From Ammonifex degensii KC4 (GTDB taxonomy: Bacteria; Bacillota; Desulfotomaculia; Desulfotomaculales; Ammonificaceae), in NCBI RefSeq assembly GCF_000024605.1, contig NC_013385.1:1111501-1175500 (forward strand): a stretch of 64,000 nt of DNA. Direction: 5' to 3'. Shown piece by piece: positions 25,042 through 35,781 of the stretch. Under the pieces are notes generated by a model that saw only the letters and a list, made by a program, of their open reading frames with translations, was not told where the DNA came from and searched no databases. Position numbers and translations under genes: made by a program. Position 1 is the stretch's first letter, and each line of letters opens with the position of its first letter.

Positions 25042-26595
25042 GGCTGCTGGCCACGTACCAGACGCGGATTGACGACCGGGAAAGCTACCCCTTCCTCGAA
25101 GCTTGTGGCGAATACTTCGGCCGCCTGGAAAGAAAGCTCTACGTGGACTACCACATCAAAGGTCTGCAGGTGAAGGAGCTGAAGCGCAAATACATCGCGG
25201 AACACGGCATCACGGCCCGACAGTTCAACTCCCTGATGAGGGAGTTAACTGCATGGCTTAACTCCGTTCGCGAGAGCCTCAGCTTCCGTGAACAGGACCT
25301 CCTGGGCCGGATCAGGCGGCTTGAGCGGTTCATCGAGAAGAAGGAGAGAGCGGGAGAGGCTTAAGAAGTCCCTGTCCAGGCTGACACCCCGCTCGGAAGA
25401 GTGGCAGAAGAAGGTCGAGCGCCTGAAGAAGGTAAAGTTCGTCCTTCACCAGAAGAAGCGGCGTTTGAGGAACCTGAGGCACAAGCTGGAGGCGGTGCGG
25501 AGGAACCTGGAGTCAGGCCGGTACCCCATCTGTTTCGGCGGCCGGAAGCTCTTCAAGGCCCAGCACAATCTGGAGGCAAACGGTTTCCAGGACCACGCGG
25601 AGTGGCTGCTTGCTTGGCGGAAAGCGCGTTCGGGCAATTTCCTGGTACTCGGCTCTAAAGACGAAATGTGCGGCAACCAGACCTGCACTTACACTAAGGA
25701 CAACACGCTGCGGGTCAGGGTTCCGGACCGGCTGCGGGCCAGGTTTGGGCACTGGGTCTTGATCAAGTCTGTCCGCTTCCCGTACGGCCAGGAGCACCTG
25801 GACCGGGTAAGACGACCGGTATGTGTTGTGAAGGGCCGGAAAGTCTACCGTGCGGTCACGTACCGCTTCGTGCGGCGCAAAGGGGCCTGGTACCTTTTTG
25901 CCACGGTGGAGCGGGACGACCCGGCACCTTCGACGAGCAGGCAAAACGGCGCGGTGGGCATCGACCTGAACGACGGCTTTTTACGGGTGGGTGAAGTGGA
26001 CCGGTCCGGCAACCCGGTAAACGAGTTTAAGGTCCCCGTAGCCATGAGGGACAGGACGAGGGGGCAAGTGACTGCGGCCCTGGGTGAAGCGGTCAAAAAG
26101 GTCGTCCTGTACGCGAAGGAAAAGGGAAAGCCGGTGGTCATAGAGGACCTGGACTTTACCGGGAAGAAGCAGGGCTTGAGGGAGTCCAACTCCCGGTATG
26201 CCCGCATGCTCTCGGGCTTCGCCTACAGGAAGTTCCGCGTGATGGTCGAGTCCTGCTGCTCGCGTGAGGGCGTGGAGCTCTTGCGGGCCAACCCGTTTGC
26301 GACGTCGCTTATAGGGCAGCTGAAGTTCATGGCCAGGTACGGTTTAAGCCCGCATGGTGCGGCGGCGTGTGTGATAGCCCGGCGCGGCCTGGGCTTTGGC
26401 CTGGAGCGGGCACCGGAAGTTTTAGCCCCGGGAATCCCGCCGCGGGGGAGGGCCTCACGGCGGGGCTACTGGCGGCAGGTGTGTAAGTCTCTCAAGCGCG
26501 GTCCCGGCCCCGGCCTCCGCGTGGACGTGCTCTACGCCGACAGGTTCTTATCCCCGGCCTTTGAGCTTCTTCCGTGCCGGTGTGGCAGGCTTTGA
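25038..26595 (+). pseudogene. tnpB: TnpB-related protein, zinc-ribbon-less, frameshifted; His in third RuvC motif
   Basis: TTG start behind AAAGGAGGTG. The first part (RKLYVDYHIKGLQVKELKRK, then RRLERFIEKKER) runs to a stop at 25364. The remainder continues in another frame from about 25345 (RERLKKSLSRLTP, ICFGGRKLFKAQ). RuvC-I is in GIDLNDGFLRVGEV and RuvC-II in VVIEDLDF. RuvC-III reads GLSPHGAAACVIARRGLGF, with His where Asp is expected. No zinc ribbon. About 515 residues if joined. The single frameshift lies in a purine-rich run near 25345-25355 and could also be a sequencing error. Confidence 0.75.
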
Positions 26596-26647
26596 GGGCG
26601 GCGGCAACGCTTCCCGGGGACCCGCGAGGATGCCCGGGACCACGTAC
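26574..26647 (+). repeat. Repeat A: tnpB 3' end plus start of its non-coding region
   Basis: This 74-base segment, including GAGGGCGGCGGCAACGCTTC and the arms CCCGGG/CCCGGG, recurs at 33547-33618 with only a few changes. It spans the last codons of the tnpB-related gene (PCRCGRL) and the first part of the downstream RNA region. Confidence 0.85.
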
Positions 26648-27042
26648 CACCCCCCGATGAAGCAGGCCGCACCGGCACGAGACCGCGAGCGGCCCCTGAC
26701 AGGGGCAGGGGGGCGGGAGGGGACAGCCCCTCCCATCCTTCCGGGCACCGGCCGTCAGACGGCACGGGCCGGGTACCGGCCGTGAGGCGGCACGGCCCCG
26801 GTTGTGACCGGAGCGGGATGAAGCCTCGACCGGCGTGGTCTGGTTGTGAGCCGATGCTCCGGCTCCCCTTCCGGGGTGAGAGTCCCCGGCGCGAACCGCG
26901 GGGAAGGCCGTTCGCCCCGCGTCGGTCGGAGGGAGTAAGGTCTGGCGTGAAGGAGAGCCAGGTATCCCGGCAAGACTCCGGCCGGAGGCGAGCCGATCGC
27001 CTCAGGTACTGTAGACACGCATACCCTTGGGTATGTATGTCT
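26596..27042 (+). ncRNA. GC-rich structured 3' region of element 3, probable guide-RNA scaffold
   Basis: About 450 bases with no credible gene, very rich in GC and in short complementary arms. Examples are GGGCACCGGCCGTCAGACGG with GGGTACCGGCCGTGAGGCGG (a near tandem repeat at 26741-26790) and CCCCTTCCGGGG near 26869-26880. It ends in the hairpin at 27013-27042. The location downstream of tnpB, up to the element end, is that of omega RNA in TnpB systems. The piece 26574-26647 is also found alone at 33.5 kb. Confidence 0.5.
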
Positions 27043-27356: not shown

Positions 27357-28046
27357 TTGTGCGGGGAACTGAAGTATGACTTCCAGATCGATTTAAGCGA
27401 CACCCATTCCGCCCACGGGAAGGTCCTCCGCTTGGTTGGTTGGGGGAAGAAGGTGCTCGAGGTCGGGTGCGCTACCGGGTACCTCACGCGGGCGCTCAAG
27501 GAGCGCTTCTGGTGCACCGTTGATGCTGTAGAGATTGACCCGGAAGCGGCGGCGCGGGCACGCCCTTTCTGCGCGCAACTCTTAGTAGGCGATGTCGAGG
27601 AACTTCCCCTCGAGGTGTACTTTGCGCCGGAGAGCTACGATGTAATCCTCCTCGCCGACGTTCTTGAGCATCTCCGTGAGCCCTGGATGGTACTGCGGCG
27701 GCTGCGCCCCTTGCTAAGGGAAAAGGGCTACGTAGTTGCTTCTATTCCCAATATCGCGCACGCGGCAGTGATCTTGGAACTCTTCGAGGGGCGGTTTCGG
27801 TACCGGCCGCGCGGTTTGCTCGACGAAACCCACCTCCGATTTTTCACGCGGGAGGGGGTGGAGGAGCTCTTTGCGGGGAACGGCTACCTGATTACCTACT
27901 GGGACCGAGTGGCGCTTCCGCCCGCCTTGACGGAGTTTGGCACAGATCTTTCCCGCTTTCCGGAGGAAGTTATCCGTTTTCTCTACAAGAAAAACAGGGA
28001 TGCGGATACCTACCAGTTCATTGTGAAGGCGGTGCGGGCAGAATAG
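27357..28046 (+). CDS. Class I SAM-dependent methyltransferase
   Basis: 230 residues from TTG 27357, placed behind GAGGGGGTG; an upstream ATG at 27315 lacks a ribosome site. The SAM-binding motif I is VLEVGCATGYLTRALKE, followed by the acidic residue in VEIDPEAA and motif post-I DVILLADVLEHL. This layout is typical of methyltransferases of cell-surface glycan clusters. The acceptor is unknown. It opens the cluster with glycosyltransferases and DUF6385/DNRLRE proteins and is closed by a strong terminator. Confidence 0.85.
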   Translation: MCGELKYDFQIDLSDTHSAHGKVLRLVGWGKKVLEVGCATGYLTRALKERFWCTVDAVEIDPEAAARARPFCAQLLVGDVEELPLEVYFAPESYDVILLADVLEHLREPWMVLRRLRPLLREKGYVVASIPNIAHAAVILELFEGRFRYRPRGLLDETHLRFFTREGVEELFAGNGYLITYWDRVALPPALTEFGTDLSRFPEEVIRFLYKKNRDADTYQFIVKAVRAE

Positions 28047-28089
28047 TTCAGCATTCCCCAGGTCACAGTTCGCAGTTCCTCTAAAATAC

Positions 28090-28119
28090 AAAACTCGGCG
28101 GAACCGCCGAGTTTTGTTG
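28090..28119. terminator. Bidirectional terminator between the methyltransferase and the DUF6385 repeat protein
   Basis: AAAACTCGGCGG and CCGCCGAGTTTT are perfectly complementary (12 base pairs, loop AA), with A- and T-rich flanks on both sides. Confidence 0.92.
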
Positions 28120-28139
28120 TCGGTACCAGTTTTGTGCCG

Positions 28140-28892
28140 TTACTTCTGCCCTTGGATAAAGGCGGTAAGGGTAGCGCTGGTGGTAGTGGCGATAGCGGCC
28201 AGCCGCACGTACTTGAGAAAAATCGAGGGCACTAAGGTGACGAGGGCTCCCGCATCAACGGTAACTGCGGTGCCATCGTCGATCCAGTCTGTGTTGTTCG
28301 GGCTGATCTGGATCTTCACCTGGGCGGCAGTGGTGCCGGTGTTGACCACGGCCAGGGTGTAGGTGATGTACTCGAGGACGTTGGTTGTTACGGCCGGCGC
28401 ATAGACGGTGGTGACGGTGATATCCTCCGAGGTGTCGAGAATTGTGCGGGAGTTAATTGCGGTACCCACTATGCCGGTGCCGATGCAGACGGAGAGCGAT
28501 CCGGTGCCGGTGGTGATGGCTAAGCCGGTGGAGGTTACCGGAAGGTCTCCCGTACCGATTGAAACCGAAAGCGCTCCTGCACCGGTAGTGATGGCCAAAC
28601 CGGTTGAAGTCACCGGCACATTACCTGTCCCGATTGAGACGGCAAGTGCTCCTGTGCCAGTTGTGATGGCGAGCCCCGTCGAGGTGACGGGAAGGTCACC
28701 AGTACCGATCGAGACAGCAAGTGAGCCCGTGCCGGTGGTAATCGCCAGACCGGGGGAGGTAATGGCCAGCCGGCCGCTGGCATCGGTGTTCAGGGCTACG
28801 TCCTGGCTGCCAAAGATTTTCACCCGCATCTCGTCAGGAACATCTTGGAAAACCTTAAAGTTGGGCACGGTTATCACTCCTTGCAGGGACAT
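28140..28892 (-). CDS. Repeat-containing DUF6385-type putative surface protein
   Basis: 250 residues. Residues 49-148 are four copies of a 25-residue unit of the type LAITTGTGSLAVSIGTGDLP + VTSTG, rich in Thr, Ser and Gly and likely to form a beta-solenoid or an O-glycosylated stalk. Residues about 160-250 match the DUF6385 domain (VLEYITYTLAVVNTGTTAAQ, then SPNNTDWIDDGTAV). The same domain ends the protein at 32643. No signal peptide. The only gene of the cluster on the minus strand, with its own AAGGAGTGATA site. By context it is a structural surface or spore protein and a possible glycosylation target. Confidence 0.75.
   Translation of the reverse strand: MSLQGVITVPNFKVFQDVPDEMRVKIFGSQDVALNTDASGRLAITSPGLAITTGTGSLAVSIGTGDLPVTSTGLAITTGTGALAVSIGTGNVPVTSTGLAITTGAGALSVSIGTGDLPVTSTGLAITTGTGSLSVCIGTGIVGTAINSRTILDTSEDITVTTVYAPAVTTNVLEYITYTLAVVNTGTTAAQVKIQISPNNTDWIDDGTAVTVDAGALVTLVPSIFLKYVRLAAIATTTSATLTAFIQGQK
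28449..28748 (-). repeat. Four tandem 75-base coding repeats in the DUF6385 protein gene
   Basis: Each copy encodes one 25-residue Thr/Gly-rich unit. Copies differ at many third positions, so the array is old or selected at protein level rather than recently amplified. Confidence 0.85.
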
Positions 28893-28985
28893 TTTTCTTT
28901 ATTCTATGTTTGTTACCATAATTTGGTTACCTGCGCACCGTGGTTGACCTTTCCTCATAAACTGGAAAAAGAAGAGGTGAGAGCC

Positions 28986-30230
28986 TTGGCCGATCGCATT
29001 TCGCTCTGCTTGATTGTTAAGGACGAGGCAGCCTACTTGGCGCGGGCAATTGAAAGTTCCCGGGCAGCGGCCGACGAGATTATCGTGGTCGATACCGGCT
29101 CCCGGGACGATTCGCCGGCCATAGCCCGCCGCCTTGGCGCAAAAGTTTTTCACTTTCGCTGGCGGGGAGACTTCAGCGCCGCGCGCAACTTCGCCTTGGA
29201 GCAGGCAACGGGGGAATGGATTCTTTTTCTCGACGCGGACGAGGAGTTTGCGGAGGGAGATGCGCAAAAACTGCGGGAAATTGTGGCAGCTACGGATGTG
29301 GAGGGGTATTTTTTCAAGATTATCAACTTTTACAATACGGAAAACCGAGTTGAGCAAGCGCCGGACGTAGTTTTTCGCTTTTTCCGGAACCATCCGGATC
29401 ACCGCTACGAGGGAAGGGTTCACGAACAAATTATCCCGGCGATCATGCGCCGCAACCCAGAGGCCCGCTTTGCCATCCGGGAGGACATAACGCTTTTTCA
29501 CTACGGTTATCTTGAGGCCAACCTTACCGCGAAGCGAAAGCGGGAGCGAAACCTGCAGCTTATGGAGCAAGAAGCAGCGCGGTCTCCGGACGACCCCGTG
29601 GTAAATTTCCACCTGGGCGTGGAGTACTTCCGGCAGGGCAACTATTCTCGTGCTACCCAAGCTTTCCTGCGGGCGGCAGCGGGGTCGAGCCCCGCAGTGG
29701 TTTATGGCCCGAAGCTCCTCAAGTACCTGGTTCAGAGCCTTTACCTTGCCGGGGAGAAGGATGAGGCGCTCCGCGCGGCAACGAACGGTCTTGCGGTTTA
29801 CCCCGACCACCCTTACCTCCATTTTGCGCGCGGTGTCTTGCTTTTCGAAAAAGGAGATTACGCGGCGGCGCAGGAGGCGTTTTTGCAGGCGCGCGCCCAC
29901 CGGCAGTGCCCCGCCTATTACGCGGTGGAGGAGGCGGTGACTGGTTACCAGACACTTTACTACCTGGGGCGGTGCGCCGAGGAACGCGGTGATTTAGAGG
30001 AAGCGCTGGCCCACTACCTGGCGGCGGTCCGCGAAAACACGGAGTTCGTGCCAGCGGTAGCTCGGATTGTTCACATCCTCAACCCGCGGGAGTACCCGGA
30101 AGATACGGTTGAATCTTTGAACCGGGTCTTCGATCTTTCCGCGCCGCGCGCACGCCGCATCCTGGCGGAAATTTTTCTGGCAGAGGGCGCGGCAGAGCTT
30201 GCCCGGCGCTTCCTGCAGGCCGAGAGGTAA
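28986..30230 (+). CDS. Family 2 glycosyltransferase with C-terminal TPR repeats
   Basis: 414 residues from TTG 28986 behind AGAGGTGAGAG. GT-A fold: LCLIVKDEAAYLARAIES, IIVVDTGSRDDSPAIARRLG and the metal-binding LFLDADEEF (DxD, about residue 84). From about residue 210 on, TPR helices follow (VNFHLGVEYFRQGNYSRATQ; LHFARGVLLFEKGDYAAAQE; YYLGRCAEERGDLEEALAHY). This GT2-TPR type occurs in surface-polymer and glycoprotein clusters of Firmicutes. Cytoplasmic; sugar and acceptor unknown. The TPR part may hold the protein acceptor. Confidence 0.88.
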   Translation: MADRISLCLIVKDEAAYLARAIESSRAAADEIIVVDTGSRDDSPAIARRLGAKVFHFRWRGDFSAARNFALEQATGEWILFLDADEEFAEGDAQKLREIVAATDVEGYFFKIINFYNTENRVEQAPDVVFRFFRNHPDHRYEGRVHEQIIPAIMRRNPEARFAIREDITLFHYGYLEANLTAKRKRERNLQLMEQEAARSPDDPVVNFHLGVEYFRQGNYSRATQAFLRAAAGSSPAVVYGPKLLKYLVQSLYLAGEKDEALRAATNGLAVYPDHPYLHFARGVLLFEKGDYAAAQEAFLQARAHRQCPAYYAVEEAVTGYQTLYYLGRCAEERGDLEEALAHYLAAVRENTEFVPAVARIVHILNPREYPEDTVESLNRVFDLSAPRARRILAEIFLAEGAAELARRFLQAER

Positions 30231-30292
30231 GAGGCTGTGGGGGCAAGGGACCGGCGACGTATCAGGTAGAAAAGAAGAGAGGAGGAATTGTG

Positions 30293-32650
30293 GTGCGCAT
30301 TGTGGGGATGCTCCGAGTAAAAAACGAAGCTACCTGGCTTAAAGCTGTGCTGGATGCTGCCGGGCGCGTATGCGACGCGCTGGTGGTCTTGGATGATGGC
30401 TCGACCGACGCAACGCCGGAGATATGCCGTCGCCACCCGAAGGTGGCCGAGTACCTCTACCAGGAGGAAAGCGTGCTTGACGAAGCGCGGGACAAAAACC
30501 GGCTCCTTAAGATGGCCCTGCAGCTCGAGCCCGATTGGATTCTGGCGCTGGACGGGGACGAGGTTCTTGAGGACGCGGCTCCGGAAATCATCCGCCGCGA
30601 AATAGCGCTCATCGATCCCGTGGAGCCCCAGTTTGTTGCCTTTGCGCTTCAGATTCTCTACTTTTGGGATGATCCGCTCACGTTTCGGTGTGAGCCTTCG
30701 CTTTACGGAGACTTTTGGCAGGTACGCCTCTTCACCACGTGGGGTCAAGATGTGACGCGGCTCACTTTTCTGCCCACGTCTCACGGTGGGAATCTCCACT
30801 GCGGTAGCGTCCCCGCGAACCTTACGGGCCGCGCGCGCTTCATCGACGTGAAGGTAAAACACTACGGTTACCTCTCGGCCGAAACCCGGCAGCGTAAAAA
30901 GGAGTGGTATGCTACCCGCGACCCGGAAGCTTTTGCCCGGGGCTACTACGACCATCTCACCTCGAGCGAGGGGATGCGTCTGGCTATCTGGCAGGAGCGC
31001 AGGGAGCGGGATGCGGTGAGCAGCACGTTTATCAAGCCCACCGCCTACTTCACTGGCTACCCGATTGAGCTTATCTCTCTCCTACCGCCCGGCACAAGGC
31101 GGGTACTCGAGGTGGGGTGTGGTTACGGGGATGGCGGCCGGGCAATAAAGGAGGGGTTGCCGGAAGTTTGGGTGGCCGGGGCAGAGTGGCGATGGACGGC
31201 ATACCTTGCGGCACGGGCCGGGCTTGACGCTGCGGTTTACTGGCGGCCTGGGGAGCCCCTTCCTTTCCCGGATGGTTTTTTCGATGTGGTACTGCTTAAC
31301 CACTGCCTTGAAAAGTTCGCCGACCCTTGGACGGTACTTTCTGGCTTGAAGCGCTATGTGGCCCCGGGAGGAAAAGTGATAGCTACAGTGGCTAATGCGC
31401 GGAACCTGGTCAACCTTGTGCGACTTGCGGGTGGAGACTGGGATTATACCGCCACTGGTGTGGCGGATATTGCCAACCTCCGTTTTTTCACTCCGCGCAC
31501 CGCTGCGGCTCTTTTCGCTTACTGCGGCTTTAAAGTAAAAGAGATCTCATTTGTTCCCGACCCGCAGATTGCTATTTCCGGGGCTTCCTCCGCGGAGAGC
31601 ACTCCTTTTTCTCTACAAGCGGGGAACCTTCACCTGGTGGGGCTCAGCGGAGAAGACCTGGCTGAGCTCACCGCACGGGACATCCTGGTGGTGGCAGAAA
31701 AAAGTGCAGGGAAGACGAGCCTTTCGCAAAGTGAACAAAGCGCAACGAGCCCGGTCGCGGCTGGAAGAACTGGACCCGGGTCGGCGGGAAGAGATGAGCC
31801 GACTATGGGGAAGTCGCCGGAGCTTATTTCGATTATCATACCCGTTTTTAACCAATTATCCTTCACCAAGCGTTGCTTGGAGAGTATTCGGAATTTCACT
31901 TCACTTCCTTACGAGCTGATCATCATCGATAACGGGTCAACCGATGAAACAAGTGCTTTCCTGAAAAGCCAAAAAGACCTCAAGGTTATTACCAACGAGA
32001 GCAACCGCGGTTTTGGCCCGGCGGTAAACCAGGGTCTTGCCCTAGCGCGGGGCGAGTACTTGGTGGTACTTAACAACGATACGTTGGTAACACCAGGCTG
32101 GCTCGAGGAGCTTCTCTACGCTCTCAAGACAGGGCCGGCGGCGGGACTTGCCGGTCCGGTAACCAACTACGCGAGCGGGCCGCAGTGCATCCCGGTGCCT
32201 TACCAGCCAGATAATGAAGAAAGTATCGTAACCTTCGCGCGAGAGCGCGCCGTGGCCTACAAGGGGAAAATTCGGGAGGTGTTCCGTCTCGTTGGTTTCT
32301 GCTTGGCGATTAGGCGAGCGGTTGTCGAGAAAATCGGCGGTTTTGACCCCCGGTTTGCTACCGGAAACTTCGAAGATGATGACTTTTGCTTGCGGGCTCG
32401 CTTAGCGGGGTTTCGCCTCTATATTGCAGAAGGTGCCTTCATCCACCACTACGGGCACCAAACCTTTGTTGGCGCGGGACTCGACTTTGCGGCTAGGATG
32501 GCGGAAAACTGGCGCCGGTTCAAGGAAAAATGGGGGCTTGACCCGGCGCGGCCGGTTGAAATGGGATACCCCGCTGACCTGCCGGCGCGGTTGAAATTTG
32601 ACCGGGCACTTCACTACGAGCCTCTCCACGAGGTGGCAGGGAATGGCTGA
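30293..32650 (+). CDS. GT2 glycosyltransferase - methyltransferase - GT2 glycosyltransferase, three-domain protein
   Basis: 785 residues from GTG 30293 behind AGAGGAGG. Domain 1 (about 1-240): GMLRVKNEATWLKAVLDAAG, VVLDDGSTD and ILALDGDEVLED (DxD). Domain 2 (about 265-420): type 11 methyltransferase with VLEVGCGYGDGGRAIKE and DVVLLNHCLEKFADPW. A low-complexity Ser/Gly linker follows at about 470-505. Domain 3 (about 510-740): SIIIPVFNQLSFTKRCLESI, VVLNNDTLVTPGWLEE and the acidic FEDDDFCLRARLAG. Three active sites on one chain could add a sugar, methylate it and add another. It overlaps the next gene by 8 bases. Confidence 0.88.
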   Translation: MRIVGMLRVKNEATWLKAVLDAAGRVCDALVVLDDGSTDATPEICRRHPKVAEYLYQEESVLDEARDKNRLLKMALQLEPDWILALDGDEVLEDAAPEIIRREIALIDPVEPQFVAFALQILYFWDDPLTFRCEPSLYGDFWQVRLFTTWGQDVTRLTFLPTSHGGNLHCGSVPANLTGRARFIDVKVKHYGYLSAETRQRKKEWYATRDPEAFARGYYDHLTSSEGMRLAIWQERRERDAVSSTFIKPTAYFTGYPIELISLLPPGTRRVLEVGCGYGDGGRAIKEGLPEVWVAGAEWRWTAYLAARAGLDAAVYWRPGEPLPFPDGFFDVVLLNHCLEKFADPWTVLSGLKRYVAPGGKVIATVANARNLVNLVRLAGGDWDYTATGVADIANLRFFTPRTAAALFAYCGFKVKEISFVPDPQIAISGASSAESTPFSLQAGNLHLVGLSGEDLAELTARDILVVAEKSAGKTSLSQSEQSATSPVAAGRTGPGSAGRDEPTMGKSPELISIIIPVFNQLSFTKRCLESIRNFTSLPYELIIIDNGSTDETSAFLKSQKDLKVITNESNRGFGPAVNQGLALARGEYLVVLNNDTLVTPGWLEELLYALKTGPAAGLAGPVTNYASGPQCIPVPYQPDNEESIVTFARERAVAYKGKIREVFRLVGFCLAIRRAVVEKIGGFDPRFATGNFEDDDFCLRARLAGFRLYIAEGAFIHHYGHQTFVGAGLDFAARMAENWRRFKEKWGLDPARPVEMGYPADLPARLKFDRALHYEPLHEVAGNG

Positions 32651-33500
32651 AATCATTGTGACGCCACCGCTTAAAGATGCCACGGTGAAAAGTGCTCGGC
32701 CGGAGGAAAATTTCGGAGTGGTTTTTTATCTGGGGGTAGGTAGAGCTGGTAGCAACGTTGAGCGGGCGCTTATCCAGTTTCCATTAGCGGGAATTCCAGC
32801 GGGAGCCGTGCTCCTGGCGGCTTACCTTAATCTTCGCCTTTACGAGAACGTGTACTGCGGGCAAACAAAAGAGGTGGCTCTTTACCGGGTTCTTGAACCC
32901 TGGGAAGAATATAGAGTTAACTTTTGCAACCAGCCTTCTTACGATCCCGCGCCTCTATCGACTGTTCCCCTTACCAGGCAGATTGGTGGATGGATTTCCT
33001 GGGACGTCAGCGGCGTGGTCCGTGACTGGCTTACCGGTACCTATCCGAACTACGGCTTCCTGGTGAAAGTAGAAGATGAAAACCGGCTAAGTTTGGTCCG
33101 GTTTTACAGCCGCGAGTGTAGCTGCTCGGCCTGCTGGCCGCAGCTGTTAGTGAGCTATACATATACAGAAAGGGTCTGTTGCGAGCCGCTCTTTAGGGAA
33201 GAAACCGAAACTGTTACTACCGGGGACACCGACCAGGGGAGCACACCGCGCGACCTTTCCACCTGGCGTACGGTAACCGTGTTGATAACGAACCGCGGTT
33301 CCAACCCGGCGGTGGTTCAGGGTGAGATCAGTGCGGATGGCATAACATGGCTCTCTCAAGGCCGGACCGTGATGTTGGCTGGGGGGGAATCTTATCTTTT
33401 TGTGCCGCAGGTTTTTTTGCGGTATGCGCGGGTCCGCTATCGTTCTGCCTTTTCGGGTTCCCCCACTACCCTGGTTATCACGTCTCAGTTCCAAAGTTAG
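32643..33500 (+). CDS. DNRLRE-domain plus DUF6385-domain putative surface structural protein
   Basis: 285 residues from ATG 32643, overlapping the end of the three-domain enzyme gene, so translation is coupled. Residues about 5-175 form a DNRLRE-type beta domain (DATVKSARPEENFG, ALIQFPLAGIPAGAVLLAAY, WISWDVSGVVRDWLTG) and residues about 200-285 a DUF6385 domain (DLSTWRTVTVLITNRGSNPA, VPQVFLRYARVRYR). No signal peptide is visible. Such proteins occur in spore-coat and cell-surface filaments. The coupling suggests that it is the substrate of the upstream glycosyltransferases. Confidence 0.8.
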   Translation: MAEIIVTPPLKDATVKSARPEENFGVVFYLGVGRAGSNVERALIQFPLAGIPAGAVLLAAYLNLRLYENVYCGQTKEVALYRVLEPWEEYRVNFCNQPSYDPAPLSTVPLTRQIGGWISWDVSGVVRDWLTGTYPNYGFLVKVEDENRLSLVRFYSRECSCSACWPQLLVSYTYTERVCCEPLFREETETVTTGDTDQGSTPRDLSTWRTVTVLITNRGSNPAVVQGEISADGITWLSQGRTVMLAGGESYLFVPQVFLRYARVRYRSAFSGSPTTLVITSQFQS

Positions 33501-33646
33501 TCCTTCTGGATAGCTGGAGCTTTCAAGGGTTTTTACGTTTTCCCCTGTGCCGGTGCGGTTGCTTGAGGGCGGCGGCAACGCTTCCCGGGGACCCGTGAGG
33601 ATGCCCGGGACCACGTACTGCCCACCTGATGTCCCTGGGACAAGAA
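33501..33646 (+). mobile_element. Relic of a TnpB element: tnpB 3' end and start of its RNA region
   Basis: 33547-33618 repeats 26574-26647 almost base for base. The preceding bases can be read GFLRFPLCRCGCL, comparable to the tail FELLPCRCGRL of the tnpB-related gene of element 3. Nothing else of the element remains. It lies directly after the surface-protein gene and before the sulfite reductase. Confidence 0.7.
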
Positions 33647-33728
33647 ATTGATTAAGATCAATGATCTGTCTCTCCCCTTCCGTTTAAACTATCGACAAAA
33701 AACTTGTACCGGAAAGGGGAGAGGAAAG

Positions 33729-34382
33729 GTGTCTGCTCCACGCGGTGCTGTTTTGCAGCGGGACGGCCAGACTTATGCGGTGGTGCCCTGGATCAAAGGG
33801 GGCTTGATCACCCCTGAAATCCTGGAGAAGCTGGCTCAGGTAGCCCGGAAGTATCAGATACCGGTGATGAAACTCACCTTTGCGGGGCGCATAGCGCTGG
33901 TAGGGCTTAAAGCGGAGGATGTGGAGGCCGTCTGGGCTGACCTGGGGCTTCCCCCTGCTCCGGCTGTGGGTCCCTGCCTGCGCAGCGTGCAGTCTTGTCC
34001 GGGTACGGCAGCCTGTCGGCTGGCCCTTCAGGACTCCCTGGGTCTAGGGATGCGCCTCGAGGAGAAGTTCGGCGGGGTGGAACTGCCGGGTAAGATGAAA
34101 GTAGGAATCTCCGGCTGCCCCATCTGTTGCGCCGAAAGTTGGGTCCGGGATTTTGGCGCTTTCGGCAAGAAGAGCGGCTTCACCGTGGTGGTGGGAGGAA
34201 ACGCTGCCCAGTTCCCCCGCATAGGGGAAGTACTGGCCGAGGGGCTTGCGGCCGAAGAAGTAGAGCGGGTTTTTGAGAAGCTTTTGGACCTTTACCGGCG
34301 GGAAGGGCAGAAAGGGGAACGCTTTGGCAATTTTGCCCACCGGGTCGGCATTGAGCGCTTAAAGGCGGAAGCCGGAGTTTAA
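33729..34382 (+). CDS. Small siroheme [4Fe-4S] sulfite/nitrite reductase-like protein
   Basis: 217 residues from GTG 33729 behind GGGGAGAGGAAAG. The frame is open upstream, but without homology. The siroheme/cluster cysteines follow the CX5C...CX3C plan: SCPGTAACRLA and GISGCPICCAESW. The FAGRIALVGLKAEDVEA segment is the ferredoxin-like half repeat. The size matches the low-molecular-weight assimilatory-type sulfite reductases known from Desulfovibrio (about 220 residues) rather than DsrAB. Electron donor unknown. Stands alone, downstream of a TnpB relic. Confidence 0.8.
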   Translation: MSAPRGAVLQRDGQTYAVVPWIKGGLITPEILEKLAQVARKYQIPVMKLTFAGRIALVGLKAEDVEAVWADLGLPPAPAVGPCLRSVQSCPGTAACRLALQDSLGLGMRLEEKFGGVELPGKMKVGISGCPICCAESWVRDFGAFGKKSGFTVVVGGNAAQFPRIGEVLAEGLAAEEVERVFEKLLDLYRREGQKGERFGNFAHRVGIERLKAEAGV

Positions 34383-34538: not shown

Positions 34539-35781
34539 AGTGTAAAGTTACTGTAGGAGTTTTGCAGGAGCTGAGGAGGAAAAAACGAAGAGAGACCTCA
34601 CCGTCCTTCGAAGGGACGAGCAGTTGACAATCCAACCACTCAAGAGGGTGAGGTCTCTATGCAGATTATAAAGCAGATTTGGGAGAAGTTCCAGAGGGTA
34701 GCGGAGCTAACGTTAAAGGTTCTGGAGGAAGGGATCGACCTTTTAAGCTTCGAGGAGAAGCTCTGGCAGGAGCTTAAAAGCTTAGGAAAGGAGATCCTGA
34801 GGGAAGTTCTGGAGGCAAAAGACGCTACCACCCAAAGAGAAGCGCCGGGTGAAGGTCCTTTACGTAGAAGCGGACGAAGACCACGTAGCTGGCCAGGACA
34901 AGAAGAGCCACCTACCTCGTCTTGTTTACATACACGAAGGGAAAGAAGAGGTGGGGAAAGGGCGGTATAAGCTTAAGCGGCCTTACTACCTGGGAGGGCT
35001 TTATCCGGACACGGATGAACTGAGGCTGGACGTTCTAACTTACATTGAGGAGCATTATGAGCTACATGATATTGAGCGGATCTATCTTTGTGGAGACGGG
35101 GACAGGTGGATAAAGAGGGGTCTGGAGTTTTTACCGAAGAGCGTATTTGTTCTGGACCTTTTCCACCTGGATAAATACCTTGTGGCCGCTTTAGGAAAGG
35201 ACAAAGAAGCATATGGAGAGATTTGGGCAGCCTTGAGGCGTGGTGATCGGGTGGGGGTAGAGAAGGTACTGAAGGGAGCGGCGAGGCAGGCGGAGACACC
35301 TGGCCGGAGGAAGGCGGTGCGTGATTGTCGGCGCTACATAAATCAGAACTGGGAGGGGATAACGGCATACCGGCTTTACCCGGAGGCGCGGTTAGGGGTG
35401 AGCGCGGAGGCTCACGTAAGTCACCTGTACTCGGCGCGGTTGTCATCCCGACCGATGGCTCAGGACTTTGCTTGTGGGGAAGCCCTTATGGCCCGGTTGC
35501 GGGTGGCGAAGGCGAATGGTGTTTCCTTGCGGGAGCAATATGTAGCCCGATGGCGGGAGGGCTTAAAGGCTTTAGAGATCGATAAGGCAGCTGTTGAGGA
35601 AGAGAGGCAGAGGCTAAGGAAAGTATCGGGTGAGGTGTTCGATAATCTTCCCGCATTACGGGGTCCGGTAACGTCATTAACCAGAGCCCTCAAAGCTTTG
35701 AGCCGGAACATCGATCTTCTCTGGTAGTTCGTCCTGGCTCAGGGACGGTGGAGATCGAGACTCCTACAGTAGGTTGACACG
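34539..35781 (+). mobile_element. ISLre2-family insertion sequence, internally deleted
   Basis: Imperfect terminal inverted repeats share TACTGTAGGAGT: GTGTAAAGTTACTGTAGGAG at 34539-34558 against the complement of CTCCTACAGTAGGTTGACAC at 35761-35780. It encodes two pieces of one transposase. Total length about 1.24 kb against roughly 1.6 kb or more for intact relatives. No target duplication was found. Confidence 0.75.
34659..35727 (+). pseudogene. ISLre2 transposase with internal deletion and frameshift
   Basis: The N-terminal piece (QIIKQIWEKFQRVAELTLKV, EEKLWQELKSLGKEILREVL) is in frame from ATG 34659 to about 34830. The rest is in another frame from about 34835 (KRRVKVLYVEADEDHVAGQ, then LCGDGDRWIKRGLEFLP and FVLDLFHLDKYL) to 35727. 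Roughly 110-130 residues expected between them are absent. The remaining C-terminal catalytic part looks well preserved, so the deletion is recent. Confidence 0.8.

Follow-up and report, generated by a model that had tools for sequence, protein, structure and literature searches.

The described systems closest to the gene cluster treated here are glycoproteins and fibres of the endospore surface. Subunits of the F-ENA fibre, which stack as C3 trimers, are built from a hook, a variable beta neck and a head; this head domain recurs in the F-Anchor protein, and in clostridial F-ENA-4 Ser/Thr residues probably bear O-glycans (PMC11952670). In C. difficile, SgtA, which is encoded adjacent to BclA3, adds GlcNAc to Thr residues of the BclA3 stalk (PMC7157674), and bclA1-3 are under sigma-K control (PMC3789822). 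The present cluster occupies positions 27357-33500 of a 64,000-nucleotide stretch of the Ammonifex degensii KC4 genome (the window, NC_013385.1, 1,111,501 to 1,175,500). It holds genes for a methyltransferase, a repeat protein with a DUF6385 domain (REP), a family 2 glycosyltransferase with tetratricopeptide repeats (GT2-TPR), a GT2-methyltransferase-GT2 protein (GMG) and a DNRLRE/CBM96-DUF6385 protein (DNR). In our judgement the cluster probably encodes a glycoprotein system of the spore surface that is made late by the mother cell, namely a glycosylated head-neck-hook protein, REP, and an anchor with the same head. What the sequences show is the gene content, the pairing and base swapping of the DUF6385 proteins, the GT2-TPR linkage, the promoter pattern and the sporulation-gene association; from these we infer the glycosylation, its substrate, the glycan, the polymerisation or oligomeric state, the location on the spore and the anchor role.

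REP, like the F-ENA subunit, would combine a short N-terminal hook, a variable neck and a C-terminal head with no need of a secretion signal, and DNR matches F-Anchor in setting that head on another base; in the DUF6385 family such a pair is nearly constant. The head domain is DUF6385 instead of the DUF4183 of F-ENA, and several dedicated GT2-TPR genes lie beside REP. DUF4183 (PF13799) gave no match above cut-off in the class (Desulfotomaculia), and none in either DUF6385 protein or elsewhere in this genome. Compared with the F-ENA hook, M-P-psi-psi-(K/Q)-P-(F/Y), the REP peptide MPNFK[IV]F agrees in M, P, K and the aromatic residue, and differs in having N at position 3 and I/V at position 6, where the hook proline is missing. 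With BclA/SgtA, REP shares the anchor-stalk-head plan, the Thr-rich variable stalk and the adjacent protein glycosyltransferase, and the sigma-K control of BclA is paralleled by an enrichment of the predicted sigma-K promoter consensus at REP. Unlike BclA, REP contains no collagen GXY repeats, and searches of Pfam and NCBIfam gave no match to an exosporium leader or a BclA-C/C1q head. The S/L-Ena subunits (DUF3992, PF13157) may resemble the DUF6385 head in their small jelly-roll fold, as judged from a low-confidence model of the head, but REP has a long repeat neck and hhalign gave no profile similarity; PF13157 itself has no match in this genome. The DUF6385 family thus probably works in a manner resembling BclA and F-ENA, while the domains that define those two systems are lacking from it.

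The DUF6385 pair and its homologues

Both DUF6385 proteins score well above the Pfam PF19912 gathering cut-off (86.5 and 84.2 bits against 26.8). They are the only two copies in the genome (2,157,067 bases) and the layout is kept across many genomes, so that the arrangement is not one of chance.

The start of REP was placed at the GTG at 28868 according to its homologues, nearly all of which begin MPN..[IV]F. Its tandem repeat (75 nt in 3.5 copies, 72% matches) corresponds to about four 25-residue Thr/Ser/Gly units (originally predicted as four Thr/Gly repeats), and the neck, of GLAITTGTG-type sequence, is 33% Ser/Thr and 2% charged. The same plan of N-terminal peptide (MPN[FYN]K[IV]F in most cases), neck of 57-1045 residues and C-terminal DUF6385 was recognized in 48 proteins. 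Neck length differs by whole repeats in close relatives (the proteins of loci L043 and L044 have 290 and 222 residues), and between lineages the neck type changes wholly, being represented by GLAITSTGLAITAPAN, by TATDLDIRDLNN...YGNDG, by GTITSVLGATITAGTL and by NSTAASFLATVS, with the N-terminal peptide and the head retained. Searches of REP against Pfam and NCBIfam produced nothing beyond Pfam DUF6385 (no match in NCBIfam), and its sequence relatives in the PDB were weak chance matches only; an F5/8-type-C likeness of the head (E 0.03-0.04) was too weak to use. By far the longest homologue (L162 8371-11889; 1172 residues) has a neck of more than 1000 residues. Two others (L063 2-532 and L159 1607-2344) show regularly spaced Cys residues in the neck (AVCQTEAVPISQ and VLPICTTSDVPV, respectively), which by analogy with S-Ena could give disulphide-linked necks.

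The second DUF6385 copy keeps the head and swaps its N-terminal base between lineages. In the window and many homologues the base is of the DNRLRE/CBM96 type, and the N-terminal 170 residues of DNR lie above both curated cut-offs (CBM96, 75.6 against 26 bits; NF033679, 119.2 against 34). The first CBM96 member binds alginate (PMC9971899). DNR resembles CBM96/DNRLRE domains in this profile match and differs in having no catalytic partner or signal peptide and in being joined to DUF6385. Elsewhere the base is a transmembrane helix (L043, L044, L059 and L060), a SipL/SPOCS-like domain just below cut-off (L157; 21.4 against 23.6 bits), a collagen-like segment (L156, E 6e-6, the sole partner protein with such repeats) or an unassigned domain beginning NGDF..PDGW. 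The SPOCS domain is named for spore-coat proteins, and BclA and F-Anchor are among the collagen-like proteins known from Bacillota spores. DNR would be better read as an anchor or cap with the shared head than as another target of decoration.

DUF6385 is found in 26 of the 85 genomes of the class, nearly always as two copies 0.3-8.5 kb apart, and in 57 of 398 genomes of a phylum-wide sample, again mostly as two copies. The typical pair is composed of one REP-like copy and one base-swapped partner. In the class loci, the usual neighbour of REP is a long GT2-TPR gene in head-to-head orientation, beyond which 1-3 further ones often lie. Outside the class, GT2-TPR genes occur in 24 of 32 DUF6385 stretches (54 genes in 571 kb), compared to none in 263 kb of unrelated control loci. 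As judged from these sequences, the two DUF6385 proteins are a conserved two-protein system. In the literature searched, no mention of DUF6385 was found.

Promoters and sporulation genes

Of 20 non-redundant class loci, 19 have the pattern AC-N17-[CA]ATANNNT upstream of REP, against 0 to 2 for neighbouring spacings, and 13 have the form AC-N17-[CA]ATANNNTA, for which shuffles gave a mean of 0.18 and a maximum of 2. The window, L034, L037 and L038 have the sigma-K consensus in its exact form, AC-N17-CATANNNTA. Because most of the class loci are homologous footprints and hence not independent, and the [CA] form was picked after the data had been seen, the exact consensus was tested on loci outside the class. 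There it occurs within 110 nt of 9 of 25 REP genes. Among control genes it precedes 8 of the 185 whose upstream region is intergenic (Fisher p=1.5e-5) and 9 of all 318 (p=4e-7). It was also found at 7 of 36 other DUF6385 genes outside the class, three of them apparently REP genes that escaped the start pattern. Genome-wide, the exact pattern is only mildly enriched (38 occurrences against 28 for the reversed control); single occurrences therefore prove nothing, and the case rests on conservation at the REP genes. One occurrence in this genome is located just upstream of sigK, a gene that has a sigma-K promoter in C. difficile and is autoregulated in B. subtilis (PMC3789822). The dpaA gene, tried as a sigma-K promoter control, was uninformative (consensus near the gene in 1 of 30), probably because it lies inside an operon.

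On the GT2-TPR side of the homologous loci, a CATAWWTTA box was detected in 11 of 20 cases (shuffle mean 1.2), and the candidate GT2-TPR promoter is weaker than that of REP. About 15 class loci combine a conserved GTAACNTTCCAC element with the CATAWWTTA box facing the glycosyltransferase gene, in the manner of a shared divergent promoter.

SpoIVA is encoded in 56 of the 57 DUF6385 genomes, compared to 341 of the 398 overall (p=9e-4), the single exception being an 80%-complete genome. By hydropathy, none of the five window proteins contains a signal-peptide-like or clear transmembrane stretch. A protein made in the mother cell needs no signal peptide, which fits both REP and DNR.

Enzymes, fold and gene arrangement

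The GT2 proteins of the cluster match PF00535 (E 6e-25 and 3e-40) and contain the acidic, metal-binding motifs LDADE, LDGDE and LNNDT. The nearest solved relatives of GT2-TPR are GmaR (E 6e-29) and SunS (E 3e-18), both of which modify polypeptides, GmaR acting on flagellin in the cytosol. Its TPR part resembles human O-GlcNAc transferase, and its sequence includes a DAD metal-binding motif. GT2-TPR has the GT2 fold in common with GmaR and SunS, which act in the cytosol on Ser/Thr or Cys, and differs from them in its C-terminal TPR array; it also falls below the cut-off of the SunS S-glycosyltransferase equivalog TIGR04195 (72.2 against 350 bits). It is a candidate initiating protein O-glycosyltransferase.

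GMG is a candidate enzyme for glycan extension and methylation. A sister GMG of genome G006 (L034 8623-10071) stops after the methyltransferase domain, at 482 residues, and lacks the third (GT2) domain, which in L043 is a separate gene adjoining the partner gene (48% identity); this domain is therefore modular. The free methyltransferase is a possible glycan methylase. In L063 its relative follows a GT2 domain within a single fusion protein, the gene of which adjoins a DUF6385 gene (35% identity, E 4e-23). A counterpart was not seen in the sister cluster L034, so that its membership of the cluster is probable and not certain. It is the S-adenosylmethionine (SAM)-dependent methyltransferase domains that suggest a methylated glycan.

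In its AlphaFold model (predicted local distance difference test, pLDDT, 53 overall, with head block means up to 85), the head is predicted to be a jelly roll. Among about 1000 aligned chains, Ena entries account for 4 of the 18 best (Ena1B, Ena3A, Ena2A and Ena1C, the four Z scores being 8.9, 9.4, 9.8 and 10.2).

The features of the locus are collected in Table 1. The gene and domain content given in the original prediction is borne out by Pfam and NCBIfam profile matches, and the 8-base overlap described there between the last enzyme and the DNRLRE protein is exact (32643-32650, from the DNR ATG to the end of the GMG stop). The gene set of the packed cluster was also right, but REP lies on the minus strand and diverges from GT2-TPR, and the methyltransferase gene converges on it; the cluster therefore comprises at least two transcription units and is not one operon. 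Directly downstream (33648-34382) is a gene for a 244-residue NIR_SIR-only protein, similar to the C-terminal part of NirB. At 34849-35727 there is an open reading frame for the C-terminal portion of a transposase of the ISLre2 family (NF033529). As this frame begins at profile position 100, the gene appears to have lost its 5' end to truncation or frameshift.

Table 1. Features of the DUF6385 cluster, in window coordinates
Feature	Position	Strand	Evidence
64-bp direct repeat, left copy, adjoins TnpB gene	26592..26655		
SAM-dependent methyltransferase, 229 aa	27357..28046	+	Pfam Methyltransf_23 E 7e-19
REP, 242 aa, head-neck-hook protein, C-terminal DUF6385	28140..28868	-	DUF6385 E 1e-24; start from homologues
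REP head, residues 163-242	28143-28382	-	DUF6385
REP repeat neck, residues 38-137	28458-28757	-	
REP N-terminal peptide, residues 1-20	28809-28868	-	
Sigma-K-type promoter of REP (predicted), AC-N17-CATAGAATA	28900..28927	-	element and spacing recur in other loci
Candidate divergent GT2-TPR promoter, AC-N17-CATAAACTG	28937..28964	+	one mismatch to sigma-K -10
GT2-TPR protein, ~414 aa	28986..30230	+	PF00535 E 6e-25 and TPRs; likely start TTG 28986
GMG protein	30290..32650	+	two PF00535 stretches and Methyltransf_23
GMG domains: GT2; methyltransferase; GT2	~30290-31084; ~31085-31540; ~31829-32464	+	
DNR, 285 aa, 7 Cys	32643..33500	+	CBM96 E 5e-21; DNRLRE NF033679 E 2e-34; DUF6385 E 7e-24
64-bp direct repeat, right copy, 94% identical	33563..33626		

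Proposed function and alternatives

According to the proposed scheme, sigma-K would drive synthesis of REP in the mother-cell cytosol as a protein that lacks a signal peptide and has a conserved N-terminal hook, a beta-rich Thr/Ser neck and a jelly-roll-like DUF6385 head. GT2-TPR would put the first sugar on Thr/Ser residues of the neck, and GMG, perhaps together with the free methyltransferase, would extend and methylate the glycan. The finished REP would then form a nap or a stacked fibre on the spore surface, the hook of each subunit gripping a neighbouring head, and DNR, with the same head on a carbohydrate-binding base, would anchor or cap it. Since REP and DNR repeat the F-ENA design with a different head family, a fibre or nap with a head-sharing anchor is favoured. 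The proposal of a dedicated system for decorating a repetitive surface or spore protein has thereby gained support from the pairing, the GT2-TPR linkage, the sigma-K-type promoters, the SpoIVA association and the spore-coat and collagen-like partner modules. For the family its "surface or spore" can be narrowed to the spore; the activity of the present copy is uncertain, given the sigK frameshift and the report of a non-spore-former described below.

Several observations weigh against this scheme. Ammonifex degensii has been described as a non-spore-former, though most sporulation genes are present (PMC3533761). A poly-A run in its sigK (~1446480-1447190 of the genome; L183 1405-2121) carries a frameshift, the gene reading ...SEEEEKST and a stop, then ...GDEVARNILIEHNL in another frame; the frameshift could explain the reported lack of spores if real, but may be a sequencing error. 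Genome G001, of the same genus, has intact sigK and SpoIVA and no DUF6385, so that the system is not needed for sporulation. Eight of the 32 stretches outside the class lack a GT2-TPR gene within the DNA covered. The structure models are of low confidence (pLDDT 50 and 53, from alignments 2-3 rows deep), and the XepA, PirA and GOLD jelly rolls match the head model as well as Ena does; the match thus supports a fold class and not kinship. A comparison of DUF6385 with a single Ena sequence by hhalign gave a probability of 1.2% and no sequence relationship, and homology to Ena was rejected.

Compared with genome G006, which belongs to another genus, REP and GT2-TPR show a synonymous divergence (dS) of 0.30-0.31, against 2.1 for SpoIVA, and the ratio of nonsynonymous to synonymous divergence (omega) for the cluster is 0.08-0.24. 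The low dS relative to SpoIVA and the low omega indicate that the cluster was probably transferred horizontally and has been under purifying selection. The low dS to G006 and the 64-bp flanking repeats suggest that it was mobilised. The window copy may be silent or recently stranded, and the functional reading rests on the family. In G006, sigK itself is in two pieces on different contigs (L191 and L192), with a break around residues 111-118 that recalls interruption by a skin-like element.

Among the alternatives, the one to be taken most seriously, although we think it rather less than probable, also places REP on the spore, as a non-polymerising BclA-like nap trimer with an N-terminal anchor, a glycosylated stalk and an exposed head, and regards DNR as a separate coat protein. 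BclA indeed has the same plan, with a variable stalk, an adjacent SgtA (PMC7157674) and sigma-K control (PMC3789822), and the repeat number of REP varies in close relatives, as in L043 and L044. A simple nap does not explain why a second, head-sharing protein is nearly always present, whereas the F-ENA/F-Anchor plan does; moreover, the REP peptide is closer to the F-ENA hook (PMC11952670) than to the exosporium leader, for which NCBIfam gave no match. It is improbable that the cluster serves a vegetative cell-surface or flagellum-related glycoprotein unlinked to spores. The nearest solved GT2 protein, GmaR, does modify flagellin in the cytosol, and the cluster is intact despite the frameshifted sigK and the description of the organism as a non-spore-former (PMC3533761). 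Against this stand the missing signal peptides of REP and DNR, the sigma-K-type promoters, the association with SpoIVA in 56 of 57 genomes and the SPOCS-like and collagen-like partners.

A structural module of a phage or mobile element, with a tail-fibre-like repeat protein and glycosylation genes, is very improbable. The 64-bp repeats flank the cluster, one of them beside TnpB, the synonymous divergence (dS) from another genus, much lower than for a core gene, implies transfer, and the REP repeats give weak matches to tail-spike folds. No virion genes were found among the open reading frames examined around the cluster, however, and the GT2-TPR linkage is conserved across many families. A phage or plasmid origin was rejected after searches of 50,697 phage records, 72,556 plasmid records and the viral contigs gave nothing.

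The favoured spore-surface system may represent an undescribed kind of spore "hair" shared by scores of spore-formers that are only distantly related. More tentatively, with the balance slightly against it, we would propose that DUF6385 defines an additional class of endospore appendage besides those of DUF3992 (S/L-Ena) and DUF4183 (F-ENA), which would be widespread in anaerobic and thermophilic Bacillota and would have an interchangeable head-sharing anchor, its own O-glycosylation genes and a methylated glycan coating the fibre. DUF6385 is far commoner in the sampled genomes (57 of 398) than the DUF3992 Ena (1 of 149), and DUF4183 is unmatched in the class; in many sporulating anaerobes the surface decoration may therefore rest on an undescribed family. 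The cluster brings together the putative substrate, the candidate anchor and the candidate enzymes, so that the assembly of spore fibres and the O-glycosylation of proteins in the cytosol can be tested directly, also in thermophiles and in Lucifera butyrica (L062).

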